Positions 1,806-13,507 of a DNA stretch of 24,889 bases are shown here, one piece after another. Made by a program: the position numbers and the translations under genes. The DNA comes from a virus. The notes beneath the pieces were generated by a model that saw only the letters and a program-made list of their open reading frames with translations, did not search any database and was not told the DNA's origin. Each line of letters begins with the position of its first letter. Within the stretch, counting starts at the first letter, position 1. The stretch is taken from positions 1 to 24,889 of the IMG/VR virus record IMGVR_UViG_3300007510_000068; one strand, given 5' to 3'.

Positions 1806-1991
1806 ATGTGTTATCAAGGCTGCAGACACGAAAACTACCACGGTGATTGCACAAAAGGTAAATACCCTAAAGGTTGGATCTGTCCACCTGACCGGGTTTA
1901 TTGCGAATCCTGTGGAGATGTTTTTCATGAGGATCAAGTAATGGATGATTTATGTCATGCTTGTTATGACGAATTAAAGGAGAATAAATGA
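1806..1991 (+). CDS. Zinc-ribbon-type small protein, 61 aa
   Basis: The protein begins MCYQGCRHENYHGDCTKGKY and contains eight cysteines (2, 6, 15, 26, 33, 36, 50, 53). CESCGDVFHEDQVMDDLCHAC forms two knuckles, C-x2-C and C-x2-C, spaced 13 apart, as in a treble-clef or zinc-ribbon fold. The N-terminal cysteines and histidines could bind a second zinc. The ribosome-binding site (AAGG) is modest. The last codons contain AAAGGAG and overlap the SMC-like gene start as ATGA. Such proteins often mediate protein or DNA contacts, but no specific role can be assigned. Zinc binding is likely. Confidence 0.65.
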   Translation: MCYQGCRHENYHGDCTKGKYPKGWICPPDRVYCESCGDVFHEDQVMDDLCHACYDELKENK

Positions 1992-4027
1992 AAACATTAA
2001 CAATTCAAAAACTCCGTCTGCAGAATTTCAAAGGGATTAAAGATTTTACCCTTGAATCAGATGGAGAGGATATCATCGTATGGGGTCAGAACGCATCTGG
2101 TAAAACAACCCTTCAGGATGCATTCATGTGGGTCATATTTGGTAAAGACAGCCAGGGCAAAGCTGATTTCCAGTTAAAGCCTGTCGATATAAAAGGACAG
2201 GAGATCCACAAGCTCGAGACAGAGGTTGAGGCAACTCTGTTGATAGATGAAAAGCCCATCGTCCTTCTCAAAAGATACTATGAGAAGTACACCAAAAAAA
2301 AAGGCTCTGCCAAAAGAATTTTCCAAGGCCATACAACAGATTATTTTATTGATGATGTGCCCGTAAAAAAGAAAGACTATGATTCCAAAATAGTTGAAAT
2401 CATAAATATTAACTCGTTTAAGCTTATCACAAACCCCCATGAATTTAATAGTTTGCACTGGTCAAATTGCCGTCAGATCCTGCTTGAGATGTGCGGGGAT
2501 ATTTCCGATCAGGATGTAATCAAATCAGACGAAAAACTTGCAGGTCTTTTAGAAATTCTCAGCAATTCATCTGCTGATGACCACCGGAAAAAAGTCAAAG
2601 CCAGGCAGGGCAAAATCAATAAAGAGCTGGTTCAGATACCTGCCAGGATTTCAGAGAATCAGGAAGTCAGCAAAGCCGTCAGATCCTGCTTGAAGGGCTT
2701 AAAAACAGAGTTGAAAGATCAGGATGTTGCAAAACCTAATATTAAAATCATGCAGGGCTTAAAAACAGAGTTGAAAGATCAGCAGGAAGAACTCAGGTCT
2801 TTACAGTCGAATGAAGAGGTCAGCAAAAAACAGATCCGGATAAATAAAATTGATGCTGAAATCATCACCCTTCAGTCCAATGCAGACCAGGGTCTTTCCG
2901 AAAAGAAAAAGCCTTTCCTGGATGTAATTGAACACCTTGAAACAGCCTGGATAATAAGAAAGAGAGAACTCATCTCTCAGAAACATGGGAATAATGACAA
3001 GATAGATGATCTCAAACGACAGCTGCAGCAGGATTCCCAAAGGATCAAGATAGCAGAAGATGCAATCGAGGAAAAACGCAAGGAGTGGCATAGAGAGAAT
3101 GCCAAACAGCCTGAGATAAAAGAGGTATGCCCTGTTTGTGATCAGGATATTCCGGAAGATCAGATAGAAGAAGCAAAAGAGAAATTCAATCAAGCCAAGT
3201 CTAAAAAACTGGCTGAGAATACAGCTGCAGGCAAAGAGAGAGCTGAGTATATCAAACAACTCTCAAAAGGGATTGAGGCCAAAGAAAAAGCGATTGAGCT
3301 TTTAAATGAAGAGCAGACCACGCTTGATGGTTCTATAGATCATGAGCAGAAAGAGTTTGAGTCTTCCATTGCAGAGCAAAAAGAAAAAATAGCCTCTATC
3401 CCGGAGTCCGGTGCTGAAATCCCGGATGCCCTGACAAAAGAAAAAGCAGAGCTGGAATCAGAGATCAAAGATTTAAAAGAAGGATCTCAGGATCAGATTA
3501 AAACAATCCAGAAAGAAATTACAGATATTGAATCCCGTATTTCTTCTGAAAATGTCAAAGAAGCAGAGTGGAAAGCAGCTGAGAAAACCATTGCCAGAAT
3601 TGCCAAACTTGAAAAACAGGAAAAAAAGCTGGCAGCAGAGTATGAAAGGCTTGAGTCTGAACTTCACATGCTGGACCAGTTTATCGTCCATAAGGTCAAA
3701 CTACTGGAAAATCAAATAAACAGCCGGTTTGAAATGGCTCGTTTCAAGATGTTTAACGTGCTGATCAATGGCGGGATTGAAGAAACCTGCATCACAACTT
3801 ACAACGGGGTTCCCTGGGAATCTCTTAACTCTGCAGGAAAGATCAATGTGGGTCTGGATATCATCAATGCTCTGTCAGAGTATTATGGTTTTTCCTGTAC
3901 CGTATTTGTTGATAATCGAGAGAGCTGTACTGAAATCATTGATACACGGGCCCAGGTAATCAACCTCTATGTCTCTCCTGACCATCAAGAATTAACCGTA
4001 TCAAACAAAAAGGAGAAGGCAGCATGA
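1988..4027 (+). CDS. SMC/Rad50-like coiled-coil ATPase of the phage recombination module
   Basis: This 679-aa protein has the Rad50/SbcC architecture. The N-terminal lobe has Walker A GQNASGKT (residues 33-40). A long charged coiled coil spans roughly residues 200-590 and is split by a zinc-hook CPVC (381-384). A short C-terminal lobe has a signature-like LNSAGKINVGLDIINAL and a Walker B-like TVFVDNRES (Asp642). The usual Walker B Glu position is Asn, a variant I recall from phage members. It probably uses ATP to hold or remodel DNA ends during recombination or replication. Full SbcC is about 1,000 aa, so the coil is short. It is translationally coupled to the zinc-ribbon gene before it and to recT after it (ATGA at 4024), suggesting a joint function. 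Short repeats occur within it at 2469-2782. The family call is confident; the biochemical role is inferred. Confidence 0.85.
   Translation: MKTLTIQKLRLQNFKGIKDFTLESDGEDIIVWGQNASGKTTLQDAFMWVIFGKDSQGKADFQLKPVDIKGQEIHKLETEVEATLLIDEKPIVLLKRYYEKYTKKKGSAKRIFQGHTTDYFIDDVPVKKKDYDSKIVEIININSFKLITNPHEFNSLHWSNCRQILLEMCGDISDQDVIKSDEKLAGLLEILSNSSADDHRKKVKARQGKINKELVQIPARISENQEVSKAVRSCLKGLKTELKDQDVAKPNIKIMQGLKTELKDQQEELRSLQSNEEVSKKQIRINKIDAEIITLQSNADQGLSEKKKPFLDVIEHLETAWIIRKRELISQKHGNNDKIDDLKRQLQQDSQRIKIAEDAIEEKRKEWHRENAKQPEIKEVCPVCDQDIPEDQIEEAKEKFNQAKSKKLAENTAAGKERAEYIKQLSKGIEAKEKAIELLNEEQTTLDGSIDHEQKEFESSIAEQKEKIASIPESGAEIPDALTKEKAELESEIKDLKEGSQDQIKTIQKEITDIESRISSENVKEAEWKAAEKTIARIAKLEKQEKKLAAEYERLESELHMLDQFIVHKVKLLENQINSRFEMARFKMFNVLINGGIEETCITTYNGVPWESLNSAGKINVGLDIINALSEYYGFSCTVFVDNRESCTEIIDTRAQVINLYVSPDHQELTVSNKKEKAA
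2469..2693 (+). repeat. 19-bp direct repeat read in two different frames within the SMC-like gene
   Basis: The 19 bases starting GCCGTCAGATCC occur at 2469-2487 and again at 2675-2693. The first copy encodes CRQILLE in the gene frame; the second is shifted and encodes AVRSCLK. A shared DNA block in two frames cannot result from protein-level selection and suggests copying or template switching at the DNA level. Confidence 0.6.
2694..2782 (+). repeat. 29-bp direct repeat, period 60 bp, in the coiled-coil region
   Basis: An identical 29-base block beginning AGGGCTTAAAAACAG is at 2694-2722 and 2754-2782, exactly 60 bases apart, so it stays in frame and adds the peptide GLKTELKDQ twice, 20 residues apart. 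It immediately follows the second copy of the 19-bp repeat. The perfect identity implies a recent duplication in the coil. Confidence 0.7.
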
Positions 4028-4812
4028 CACCCAACTTACCCGCAATACAAAAAACATTATCAAACCCCAATGTCGTGACAAGGATAGAATCACGACTGGG
4101 AGAAAAGGCAGGAACATTTATTACCTCTGTTCTTGACCTTTGTGGAGAGGATCAAAACCTTGCTGTATGCGATCCCAATCTGGTTATAAAAGAGGCTTTA
4201 AAGGCTGCAGGGCTTGATCTCCCCATCAATAAAAACCTTGGTTTTGCTTATGTTATCCCTTATGGCAAAAAGCCTCAATTCCAGATGGGTTACAAGGGTT
4301 ATATCCAGCTTGCCATCCGCACCGGACAGTATAAACACCTCAATGCCGGAATCGTTTATGAAGGCGAAGAAATGATCGAAGACCGGATTAAAGGAACTCT
4401 TGAGATCGGTGGGGAAAAAACCAGTGATAAAGCCATCGGTTACTATTGCTATATGGAGCTGATCAACGGCTTCCAGAAAGCAATCGCATGGACCAGGGAA
4501 AGAGTTGTAACACACGCAAAAAGGTTTTCCAAAAGTTACAGCAAGGGAACTTCCCCCTGGAAAAGTGATTTTGATGCCATGGCATTGAAGACAATGATGC
4601 TGCAAATTATTCCAAAATACGGACCCATGACCATAGAAATGTCGACTGCCATGAGTTCTGATCATGCGGATTTCAAAGGCTTTAATCCACAGGATGAGGT
4701 TGATGCAAATGCTAACTCTGAAGTTATTGACATTGAAATGACTGATGAAGAGAAGGCAGAGATTGAAGCCCAGGAGAGAGAAGAGGCTGAACAATCTGGA
4801 CCGGGTTACTAA
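4024..4812 (+). CDS. recT: RecT-family single-strand annealing protein
   Basis: This 262-aa protein matches RecT throughout. An N-terminal helical section is followed by CDPNLVIKEALKAAGLDLPI, then LGFAYVIPYGKKPQFQMGYK and GYIQLAIRTGQYKHLNAGIV, the hallmark core of the family. AIAWTRERVVTHAKRFSKSY and WKSDFDAMALKTMMLQIIPK come later, and the C-terminal tail is acidic. RecT anneals complementary single strands and promotes strand invasion in phage recombination and concatemer formation. The length is typical (about 270 aa). Its ATG overlaps the stop of the SMC-like gene and the next gene starts immediately at its stop codon, forming a three-gene unit. No RecE-type exonuclease partner is recognised nearby; the MBL-fold protein that follows may replace it. 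Confidence 0.95.
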   Translation: MTPNLPAIQKTLSNPNVVTRIESRLGEKAGTFITSVLDLCGEDQNLAVCDPNLVIKEALKAAGLDLPINKNLGFAYVIPYGKKPQFQMGYKGYIQLAIRTGQYKHLNAGIVYEGEEMIEDRIKGTLEIGGEKTSDKAIGYYCYMELINGFQKAIAWTRERVVTHAKRFSKSYSKGTSPWKSDFDAMALKTMMLQIIPKYGPMTIEMSTAMSSDHADFKGFNPQDEVDANANSEVIDIEMTDEEKAEIEAQEREEAEQSGPGY

Positions 4813-5517
4813 ATGCTGGATATTAAAACATATGCTTCCGGATCATCTGGAAACTGCTACAAAATATCGGATGGCTATACCTCTATTATGATAGAATGCG
4901 GCATCCGTTTCCAGGCAATCCGTGAGGCTTTTTCTTTTAAATTATCCCAGGTGGATGGGTGTCTTATTTCACATTCCCATAAAGATCATTGTAAAGCCGT
5001 GGAACATATTTTAAGGGCTGGTATTGATTGCTATATGTCAGAGCAAACCAAAAGAGAAATTGGAGCTTCTGGCCATAGAATACATGCTTTTAAATCAAGA
5101 GAATTAATCACAATCGGAACGTTCTCAATCCTTACTTTTCCATTACAGCATGATGTCATGAACCACGGCTTTTTAATTCAAAATAAAAATGGTGAAAAAC
5201 TTTGTTATATAACAGATTCTTACTATTGTAGGTATAAATTCAAGGGTGTGAACTATTATATGATCGAGTGTAATTACTCCATGCCAATATTGGAAAAAAA
5301 TATTAAATCTGGCGTGACGGATAAGGCTCTCAGGAATAGGATAATAAAATCACATTTTGAGTTGGAAAATGTCAAAAAATTTTTCAAAGCAAATGATCTT
5401 TCAAGCGTGAAACAAATCCACTTAATCCATATCAGCAGCAATAACGGATATCCAGAGTTGTTTAAATCTGAGATCCAAGGAATTACTGGCAAAGAGGTAT
5501 ATATTCATGGCAGTTGA
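4813..5517 (+). CDS. Metallo-beta-lactamase-fold hydrolase, putative nuclease partner of RecT
   Basis: The 234-aa product opens MLDIKTYASGSSGNCYKISD, typical of the YycJ/WalJ-type MBL subfamily. The motif H54-S-H56-K-D58-H59 is present, followed by His113 (or His119), Asp135 (YITDS) and His206 (LIHISSNN), so all dinuclear zinc-site positions appear filled. WalJ-type proteins are linked to DNA 5'-exonuclease activity, and MBL genes often sit beside annealing-protein genes in phages. A role in producing single strands for RecT is therefore plausible but not shown. The ATG directly abuts the recT stop codon. It is shorter than WalJ (about 260 aa). Confidence 0.85.
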   Translation: MLDIKTYASGSSGNCYKISDGYTSIMIECGIRFQAIREAFSFKLSQVDGCLISHSHKDHCKAVEHILRAGIDCYMSEQTKREIGASGHRIHAFKSRELITIGTFSILTFPLQHDVMNHGFLIQNKNGEKLCYITDSYYCRYKFKGVNYYMIECNYSMPILEKNIKSGVTDKALRNRIIKSHFELENVKKFFKANDLSSVKQIHLIHISSNNGYPELFKSEIQGITGKEVYIHGS

Positions 5518-6243: not shown

Positions 6244-7075
6244 AAAATTTGATACAAGCACCTGGAGAGATCCCTGGTTTGAAGAATTGGGATTAAGGGA
6301 AAAACTTGCCTTTATATATTTCTGGACAAATGAAATTTGTAATCAAGCTGGCATATACGAGATAAGTGAAAAGCGAATTAAATTCGAACTTGGATATGGT
6401 ATCGATATGGTATTTGAGGGGTTGAAAGAGAAAATCCAATGGTATTCCGGGTCAAAAACCATATGGGTGAAGAACTTTTTTCGCCGTCAATGCCAAAATA
6501 GTAAGTTCGCAATATCCGCATTAAACAGTATAAAAGAAGATCCTGAGAAATTACAGATATTTATAGAATATAATAAAAAAATTTTAGAAGGATATAAGAT
6601 AGATTTAGACAAATATTTACATACCATATCGATACCATATCCTACAGAAACAGAAACAGAAACAGATACAGAAGCAGTAACAGATACAGACTTCCGTCAG
6701 ATAGAAAAATTTTGTGCCGACTTTATAAAGCACATCAAAAAAACCAAACCCACCCTTTCCCCTATATCTGATTCCTTACAAAAAAACAGCCATGTCGTTG
6801 TAAACCAATTAATCAGTCTTGATGGATTTACCTTGGATGAAATCATCACAACAATGCAATGGGCAGTAAAAGATGATTTCTGGCAGGATAATATTTTCTC
6901 TTTGGCGGCATTAAGAAAAAAAAGCGGGAATGGACTGACCAAATTTCAAAACATTAGAAATAGCATGGTTAAATCAAGCAAACAGCAATCCAAGAGCAAA
7001 CTAAATGATAAAAACAAAGAGGCTGGACGTAAATTCATTGAAAGAATGAACAGAAAAAGAGAACAAACATCATGA
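6233..7075 (+). CDS. Phage replication initiator (winged-helix, lambda O/DnaD-like)
   Basis: This 280-aa protein has three parts. The N-terminal winged-helix-like domain (about 1-100) starts YRKFDTSTWRDPWFEELGLR and contains GIYEISEKRIKFELGYG. A linker of Thr/Glu/Asp repeats (about 137-152) is encoded by a hexamer DNA repeat. The C-terminal domain (about 155-245) has FTLDEIITTMQWAVKDDFWQ and FSLAALRKKSGNGLTKFQNI, resembling the C-terminal end of DnaD/replisome-organiser proteins. A basic tail follows. Such proteins bind iterons and recruit helicase and loader. The likely loader gene follows immediately (ATGA at 7072). The gene itself contains iteron-like inverted repeats (6392-6642), as lambda O contains its origin. 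ATG at 6233 follows AAAGGAG. Confidence 0.75.
   Translation: MAYRKFDTSTWRDPWFEELGLREKLAFIYFWTNEICNQAGIYEISEKRIKFELGYGIDMVFEGLKEKIQWYSGSKTIWVKNFFRRQCQNSKFAISALNSIKEDPEKLQIFIEYNKKILEGYKIDLDKYLHTISIPYPTETETETDTEAVTDTDFRQIEKFCADFIKHIKKTKPTLSPISDSLQKNSHVVVNQLISLDGFTLDEIITTMQWAVKDDFWQDNIFSLAALRKKSGNGLTKFQNIRNSMVKSSKQQSKSKLNDKNKEAGRKFIERMNRKREQTS
6392..6691. other. Candidate replication origin with iterons inside the initiator gene
   Basis: The 10-mer GATATGGTAT occurs twice in tandem with an 11-bp period at 6393-6413, and twice more on the opposite strand at 6621-6641. Together the blocks 6392-6413 and 6621-6642 form a perfect 22-bp inverted repeat. Degenerate copies lie at 6439-6445 and 6457-6464. 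Between the blocks, about 6540-6620 is very AT-rich, suited to unwinding. Right after the second block, eight hexamers of the type ACAGAA/ACAGAT run from 6644 to 6691. Iterons, an AT-rich element and location inside the initiator gene are all as in lambda-type origins. Use as an origin is inferred. Confidence 0.6.
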
Positions 7076-11615: not shown

Positions 11616-13507
11616 ATTTTTTTAAAAAAATATTTAAGAAACGAAGCACCCTTGTAAATCCGGATAAATGGCTTGTGGATGCCTTGGGCAGTGGATCATC
11701 ATTAGCTGGAGTATCAGTCAATGAAGAATCAGCCATGAAATATTCCGCTGTTTTTGCTTGCGTCAAGGTTTTGTCTGATACAATTGCCAGTCTTCCGCTT
11801 AATATGTATGAGCGGTTGCCTGATGGCGGTAAAAAGCGAGCGACAAAGCATTGGCTTGATAATGTTTTACATCTTGCACCGTATCCTGGGATAAGTTCCT
11901 TCAGGCTCAGGAACGCATTACAGGCAAATTTATCTTTGTGGGGCAATGCTTATTGCCAGATCATCAAGACGCAAGGCGGCAAGATTCTTTTATTCCCTCT
12001 TTTGTCCAAACACATGCAGATCAAGGATGGCAAATATATTTACGGCAATAAGACAGTTGAACGATCAGAAATTTTACACATCCCGGGATTTGGCTTTGAT
12101 GGTGTTATTGGAAAATCCACAATTACTCTTGCCCGTGAATCAATTGGCCTGGGGCTCGCTACAGAGGAGTTTGGTTCTCAATATTTCGGGGCTGGAACTC
12201 ACCCTGGTGCAATAGTTGAACATCCAGGCAAACTCAGCCAAGAAGCCCATGATAATTTGAAAAAATCTTTAACAAAAAAATATTCCGGCCTTGGCCAAAG
12301 TCACAAGCTCTTATTGCTTGAGGAAGGCATGAAGCTTCAAAAAGCAGGAATACCTCCTGAAGATAGTCAATTTTTAGAAACCAGGGAATTTCAGTTAAAT
12401 GAAATATGCCGGATTTTTAGAGTTCCTCCACACATGGTGGGAGATTTAAAAAGAGCCACATTTTCCAATATCGAACATCAGTCCATTGATTTTGTTGTCC
12501 ATACCATCAGGTCGTGGTTGGTCCTTTGGGAACAGGAACTGACCTTAAATCTGCTGTCTCCCAGGGAGCAGGAAAAATATTTTATCGAGCATAAGGTTGA
12601 CGGCCTTTTAAGGGGTGATATCAAAGCCCGGTATGATGCTTATGCAACTGGCCGTCAAAATGGCTGGCTTTCTGCAAACGATATCAGGGCACTGGAAAAC
12701 ATGAATCCAATTAACGGTGGGGACATCTATCTTGTTCCCCTCAATATGGTTCCCACAGAAAAGGTTATGGAAAATGAGGGGCGGACTCGATCTGATTTCA
12801 TTGAAAAACGAAGTGTGGCAGGGCGTGACAGGGTTACAAAAACATATGTCAGATTGATCCGGGAAAATGCTCAAACAGTTGTGAACAGAGAAACCCTGGC
12901 TATCAAAAAACAGATCAAAAAACAGCGCAAGTTAAGATCTATGTCTGATTTTAAAAACTGGATCATGGAATTTTACAGCACAATGCCGGACTATATCCGG
13001 GCTAAAATGGGACCGTCATTGCAGGTTTTTATGGAGACCGTGGCACATGAGGCAATGACCGAGGTTGGATTAGATGAGCTTCCGGCGGACCTTGATACTT
13101 TTAGTGATGATTATATCGACCGGTTTGTTCAACGGTATATTTCTTCTTCCCAGGGTCAACTACTGGCTTTAACTGACCTGGACGAGATCGAGCAAAGAGT
13201 CACTGAATGGCACGACAAAAGAGCCGATAAAGTGGCACAGGATGAAGGTGTTAGAGCAAGCAATGCATCTGCCCTGTTGGTATTTGGTGCTGCAGGAGTA
13301 ACAACCTTGAAATGGTTTCGCAGAGGGAGCAAATCCTGTCCGTTTTGCCGGGCATTGGATGGGAAAACAGTTGGTATAAACACACCTTTTGTTCCCAAAG
13401 GCGCTTTTGAACCAGAAGGACACGAAAAAAAACCAATGAAAGTAAGAGGACCTAAATTCCACCCCCCGTTACATCAGGGATGCAAATGTATAATTTTACC
13501 AACATGA
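11612..13507 (+). CDS. Portal protein fused to a MuF-like capsid-morphogenesis domain
   Basis: Residues 1 to about 390 are an HK97-family portal: MNFFKKIFKKRSTLVNPDKW, then YSAVFACVKVLSDTIASLPL, NMYERL, and FRVPPHMVGDLKRATFSNIE. Residues from about 400 to 631 are a second domain ending with SCPFCRALDGKTVGINTPFV and KFHPPLHQGCKCIILPT. There C576, C579, H617, H621, C624 and C626 form the metal-binding pattern of MuF/SPP1 gp7-like minor head proteins. In most phages these are separate genes; here the frame is continuous, making one 631-aa chain. The portal forms the DNA channel; the MuF part would lie inside the head near the portal. GTG start at 11612, coupled to terL. Confidence 0.9.
   Translation: MNFFKKIFKKRSTLVNPDKWLVDALGSGSSLAGVSVNEESAMKYSAVFACVKVLSDTIASLPLNMYERLPDGGKKRATKHWLDNVLHLAPYPGISSFRLRNALQANLSLWGNAYCQIIKTQGGKILLFPLLSKHMQIKDGKYIYGNKTVERSEILHIPGFGFDGVIGKSTITLARESIGLGLATEEFGSQYFGAGTHPGAIVEHPGKLSQEAHDNLKKSLTKKYSGLGQSHKLLLLEEGMKLQKAGIPPEDSQFLETREFQLNEICRIFRVPPHMVGDLKRATFSNIEHQSIDFVVHTIRSWLVLWEQELTLNLLSPREQEKYFIEHKVDGLLRGDIKARYDAYATGRQNGWLSANDIRALENMNPINGGDIYLVPLNMVPTEKVMENEGRTRSDFIEKRSVAGRDRVTKTYVRLIRENAQTVVNRETLAIKKQIKKQRKLRSMSDFKNWIMEFYSTMPDYIRAKMGPSLQVFMETVAHEAMTEVGLDELPADLDTFSDDYIDRFVQRYISSSQGQLLALTDLDEIEQRVTEWHDKRADKVAQDEGVRASNASALLVFGAAGVTTLKWFRRGSKSCPFCRALDGKTVGINTPFVPKGAFEPEGHEKKPMKVRGPKFHPPLHQGCKCIILPT

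Follow-up and report, generated by a model that had tools for sequence, protein, structure and literature searches.

A candidate replication origin of paired GATA-NNN-TATC sites inside the initiator gene of a phage

Results

The initiator gene and its neighbors

The window, i.e., the whole 24,889-nt stretch of viral DNA analysed here, contains a gene for a 280-residue protein followed by a gene for a 178-residue protein (Table 1). The 280-residue protein matches PHROG replisome organizer families and, in part, DnaD-like families, with matches to O-like families over its C-terminal part. The replisome organizer matches agree with an earlier note on this DNA, made from the sequence alone, which had placed a repeat inside a replication initiator gene. 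No Pfam family was found in the protein. The Phage_rep_O N-terminal domain (PF04492) and the RepA_N domain (PF06970) are both absent in the Pfam search, as is the DnaD/DnaB_2 C-terminal domain (PF07261, TIGR01446), so we assign the protein to none of the lambda O, RepA_N or DnaD-domain families. The DnaD/DnaB_2 domain (PF07261, TIGR01446) is present in two relatives, L234 and L078.

In the AlphaFold2 model, built on 30 homologues, the protein consists of an N-terminal winged helix, a disordered linker and a C-terminal helical part. The N-terminal domain (residues 11-130) is of the winged-helix type and is predicted confidently (pLDDT about 88-95), and residues 135-148 of the linker mostly have pLDDT below 50. 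Because predicted helix 57-63 is placed before two wing strands, we read it as the putative recognition helix. Comparison of the model with solved structures gave no significant match; the top, non-significant one is the initiator 4pt7.

The 178-residue product is plausibly a helicase loader. It has no sequence match to a solved loader, and its model has no significant fold match among solved structures; the best, non-significant match is lambda P on DnaB, with a model confidence of only 61. Upstream, positions 1988-5517 of the window encode an SbcC-like ATPase, RecT and a metallo-hydrolase as one block, which is kept in the relatives L003 and L005. In a related phage (L006:5278-6084), a frame of many short GIKAG/GWIEAG-type repeats lies beside the RecT-hydrolase genes.

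Table 1 Features of the candidate origin region and adjacent genes (window coordinates).
Feature	Position	Strand	Remarks
Replisome organizer/replication initiator gene, 280 aa	6233..7075	+	PHROG matches, AlphaFold2 model
Block 1	6393..6414		Two 11-mers, GATATGGTATC GATATGGTATT; codons of residues 54-61
AT-rich stretch between blocks	6540..6620		81% A+T; proposed unwinding element, putative function
Block 2	6620..6642		Two 11-mers, plus strand CATACCATATC GATACCATATC; codons of residues 130-137
Eight purine-rich ACAGAA-like hexamers after block 2	6644..6691	+	Code for Thr/Glu-rich linker
Candidate helicase-loader gene, 178 aa	7072..7608	+	Homologues directly behind initiator in L131, L140

Paired 11-bp sites around an AT-rich stretch

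The perfect 22-nt inverted repeat described in the earlier note (6392-6413/6621-6642) is real. Its arms are 100% complementary and lie 207 nt apart, and it is the strongest repeat in the section of the window from 5 to 9 kb. Each arm consists of two 10/11-mers at an 11-bp step (starts 6393, 6404 and 6620, 6631). The site unit is an 11-bp near-palindrome, GATA-NNN-TATC, in two head-to-tail copies per arm, with the centre NNN in the window being TGG, or CCA on the opposite strand. Of the paired 10-mers proposed previously, the pairing at 11 bp holds, and GATA-NNN-TATC, an 11-mer, describes the unit better than GATATGGTAT does. Block 1 encodes the turn and the start of predicted helix 57-63, and block 2 encodes the entry to the linker. 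Elsewhere in the window there are only two isolated 10/11 matches, at 12576 and 23731, and an Rfam search gave no match. Two further stretches that had been suggested as partial copies, near 6440-6446 and 6458-6465, are probably not sites because they are missing the GATA/TATC half-sites that relatives conserve.

Chance was assessed by shuffling synonymous codons of the window gene with the protein and codon usage held fixed. In 2000 such shuffles the longest inverted repeat was usually 9-10 nt and never above 19 nt, compared with the observed 22 nt, which puts the repeat beyond chance. Of 20,000 shuffled genes, 6 had at least two full GATANNNTATC sites and 44 had two tandem pairs.

The very AT-rich section that had been pointed out between the arms contains the A+T maximum of the whole window, a 60-mer with 52/60 A+T (best starts 6548-6560); the A+T content of 6540-6620 is 81% versus 66% for the initiator gene. 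The eight ACAGAA-like hexamers listed in the same note are also present. Their counterpart in relatives, 20-60 nt past block 2, is likewise rich in purines (a fraction of about 0.8), and the hexamers may either assist strand opening or only encode a charged linker. GC skew is uninformative on the position of the origin because the window is coded almost wholly on one strand.

Nearest relatives

Peptide patterns of the whole initiator retrieved no relative from the viral and genome collections, but the doubled 10-mer, used as a DNA pattern, matched four viral contigs (L064, L065, L066 and L067). Two of these, L066 and L067, were set aside as likely chance matches, the pair lying close to the end of the contig or within an unrelated gene. 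L065 encodes a distant initiator with the pair just ahead of its linker. In L064, the nearest relative, the gene product is homologous to the N-terminal part (66% over 140 residues), and doubled sites stand at both of the positions seen in the window, their starts being 230 bp apart versus 228 bp in the window. The centre of block 1 in L064 is opposite to that in the window, such that both L064 blocks point one way and a mirror orientation is therefore not required. The mirrored layout, earlier considered distinctive, is thus a by-product of the near-palindromic 11-bp site, and arm orientation as a functional feature is ruled out by L064 together with the mixed centres among relatives.

Over residues 1-113, identity between the window protein and that of L064 is 72% outside block 1 and 4/8 within it, whereas all GATA/TATC half-sites of block 1 are kept bar one base. 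Half-sites that are kept while residues change would be expected under selection on the DNA, although the comparison covers only eight residues.

Several other features of these relatives were observed. In L064 (6908-10677), only the N-terminal domain of the initiator homologue is left (146 aa); behind it come a primase-like frame and a helicase-like frame, the latter seemingly with an intein and a nested endonuclease-like frame. A GC-rich relative of the window initiator, L207:2501-3346 (58% identity over the first 53 residues), has no GATANNNTATC, and its linker codons hold GGTGTCGACACC-like palindromes, which might represent this type of site in a GC-shifted version. Initiators of the window family are also encoded in three plasmid records of 37-45 kb from Bacillus, Alkalihalophilus and Brevibacillus (NZ_CP085707.1, NZ_CP144225.1 and NZ_CP085877.1), which may be phage-plasmids with an origin of the kind proposed here.

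Recurrence of the site across a group of initiators

Among IMG/VR viral stretches, 119 contain the generic site in doubled form, GATANNNTATCGATANNNTATC, compared with 10 for a palindromic control matched in composition. An automated rule placed 76 of these 119 in winged-helix initiator frames, of which 12 have the site exactly at nt 164 and the majority of the remainder have it around nt 380-390. Two or three of these 76 assignments are doubtful and several more initiator frames are visible by eye; at least about 70 of the 119 doubled sites are in initiator genes, at two hot spots.

For a second set, the genome collection was searched with aligned residues 1-54; as these leave out both blocks, the 80 loci obtained are blind to the motif. 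Site density in these homologues is 46-fold higher within the gene (59 full sites in 69.8 kb) than in the surrounding DNA (6 in 324.7 kb, 4.7 times as much sequence). A full site is present in 33 of the 80 genes and absent from 47, a tandem pair is present in 27, and nearly all sites lie at nt 160-185 and 360-490. The 59 sites and 34 pairs observed compare with means of 8.6 and 1.0 (maxima 16 and 4) in synonymous shuffles.

We define here a GATA-NNN-TATC group, consisting of winged-helix phage initiators whose genes have 11-bp sites in tandem around nt 164, around nt 360-410, or both. The window gene has such sites, and its protein is homologous to the winged-helix domain of the group by tblastn, alignment and model. 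In relatives, block 1 has its counterpart at gene nt 164/175 and block 2 near gene nt 360-410. Besides the window and L064, sites at both places are found in 14 further listed genes, in two of which (L264 and L144) the first site is single and shifted; the layout is thus not particular to the window phage. A fixed distance between the blocks was rejected, as it ranges from 170 to 274 bp in relatives. The centres vary among relatives (CCC, CCG, CAG, CCA) and agree within a gene in 38% of cases versus 20% by chance (highest of 2000 shuffles, 27%), a figure that includes kinship among the genes.

Sites, initiators and hosts

The sister phage L003, whose RecT is 89% identical to that of the window, encodes at the corresponding position a Phage_rep_O initiator (PF04492, 8e-22) with four internal repeat copies, the fullest form being GTGTCAAAAATGACAC. 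The window arms were looked for in L003 and are absent. Initiator and sites have here been swapped together, as one unit. In the exchanged replication module of L003 (8478-11512), the initiator is followed by a 771-aa frame for a DnaB-type helicase, apparently with an intein.

In another clade of related initiators (L230, L236, L252, L273 and others), the same linker region has ACGATACGT in place of GATANNNTATC, repeated about every 11-12 bp, and represents a candidate second origin class. Initiators with a GGKP-type wing carry ACGATACG repeats and those with an SPK-type wing carry GATANNNTATC, with no cross-over among those classified. Of the rows in the tree set, 25 carry a repeat other than GATANNNTATC and others have no recognised repeat. 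The second type, with ACGATACG, falls in one clade of 27 rows (support 100/100). Because its rows form one clade, the second class represents essentially one switch rather than many, which weakens the match of wing motif and site class as evidence of recognition. The window and L064 join L140 (support 98/91), a placement that is unsure because the branches are long.

The GATA-NNN-TATC site type is present in prophages of both Bacillota and Bacteroidota, and Lysinibacillus prophages have two site types that match two initiator clades. From these sequence patterns, the site appears to go with the initiator and not with the host.

Interpretation

We consider it very probable that the phage starts its replication within its own initiator gene, at an origin that includes the two blocks and the AT-rich stretch between them. 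This reading, already put forward as a candidate in the earlier note, is well supported because (i) homologous genes have the sites at these two places as well, (ii) they exceed synonymous shuffles, and (iii) they are missing in sister phage L003, which has a different initiator. The region has two features of intragenic iteron origins: repeated short sites in the initiator gene beyond chance and, next to them, an AT-rich stretch as the putative unwinding element, here between the blocks.

With the observed sites, positions, statistics, recurrence, gene order and predicted fold as the basis, we infer the steps of binding, melting, helicase loading and origin activity as follows. The winged-helix N-terminal domain of the 280-residue protein would bind the GATA-NNN-TATC iterons, which are paired in each block at a spacing of one helical turn. 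Binding at blocks 1 and 2 would place the protein on either side of the AT-rich stretch, where it could help the melting. The C-terminal part and the neighboring 178-residue loader-like protein may then recruit the replicative helicase, probably that of the host.

Some initiators autoregulate, and near-palindromic sites and winged-helix proteins would fit repression as well as initiation. The sites could be operators at which the initiator, or a repressor of the phage, chiefly regulates transcription of the initiator gene instead of starting replication. We judge this improbable: both blocks lie well within the gene and none near its start, the sites accompany the initiator in both host phyla, and the AT-rich stretch sits between the blocks. 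Origins often combine host and phage sites, which leaves some room for a nucleoid or initiation factor of the host as the binding protein. One site type occurs in prophages of Bacillota and Bacteroidota, however, and a host factor is further argued against because Lysinibacillus prophages fall in both site groups, following the two initiator clades; such a factor is very unlikely.

It might also be that the repeats merely follow from the conserved peptides GYxIDTVS and DTxSIPYxY, which do recur in many relatives. This hardly deserves credence given that synonymous shuffles of the 80 genes, which keep the peptides, fall far short of the observed sites and pairs. Moreover, between the window and L064 the residues of block 1 change more than the rest of the domain while the half-sites stay, and among relatives the linker DNA of the site is read in different frames.

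Beyond an origin in the window itself, we lean slightly toward a broader reading, in which tandem GATA-NNN-TATC sites with an 11-bp period would be one old origin code common to phage initiators of Bacillota and Bacteroidota and to the window phage. In the two-block form, the DNA coding for the recognition helix would itself be a landing site, so helix and site would have to evolve together. The locus would then be a clear case of DNA with two duties, as it would have to encode a DNA-reading helix and also be the predicted site of that helix. A shared, searchable motif would place the origin of many uncharacterised phages and prophages to within tens of bases, and the sites in prophages of two host phyla, together with the unit replacement in L003, make module exchange in phage replication directly testable.

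Comparison with known systems

Origins within initiator genes are a known kind, exemplified by lambda, SPP1 and pSK41, and the candidate origin would work in a similar way to these and to the putative origin of 80alpha. What appears new in the window is that initiators share a site code and that one block falls in codons of the predicted recognition helix. Among the papers listed in a literature search with six common 11-mer forms, none dealt with phage origins, and GATA-NNN-TATC was not found described as such a site; most subscription journals were outside the scope of the search, and earlier notice is possible. At the lambda origin, iterons lie inside gene O with a loader-type partner downstream. 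The window resembles lambda and the L003 phage O in having iterons inside the initiator gene and differs from them in that Phage_rep_O (PF04492), found in L003, is missing from the window protein and the iteron sequence is unrelated.

In Staphylococcus phage 80alpha, a putative origin is annotated within the initiator gene ORF20 (gp20), and the initiator and loader are reported to be enough for autonomous replication (PMC5499656). The position of this origin inside the initiator gene is like that of the candidate origin in the window, whereas ORF20 has a different N-terminal sequence and other repeats, with no GATANNNTATC sites. In the plasmid pSK41, the origin of the RepA_N-type rep gene lies in codons of the central linker, and initiators of this type have a winged-helix N-terminal domain and a DnaD-like C-terminal domain; the chimeric pPR9, in which phage-like versions of the N-terminal part and the origin region take the place of the RepA_N ones, is able to replicate (PMC5703833). 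The window shares with pSK41 the winged-helix N-terminal domain and sites in linker codons. Unlike the window, pSK41 has different Rep boxes and no described block in recognition-helix codons, and its RepA_N domain is missing from the window protein.

In Bacillus phage SPP1, oriL lies within the replisome organizer gene, gene 38, with an AT-rich unwinding element; its repeats are bound by the gene 38 product, and the loader gene is next (G38P, G39P, G40P) (PMC6316719). By description, the window is like SPP1 oriL in having sites in the initiator gene and an AT-rich element. Unlike the window, SPP1 also has oriR and its own helicase, and unlike SPP1, the window has near-palindromic 11-mers in two blocks on both sides of the AT-rich stretch.
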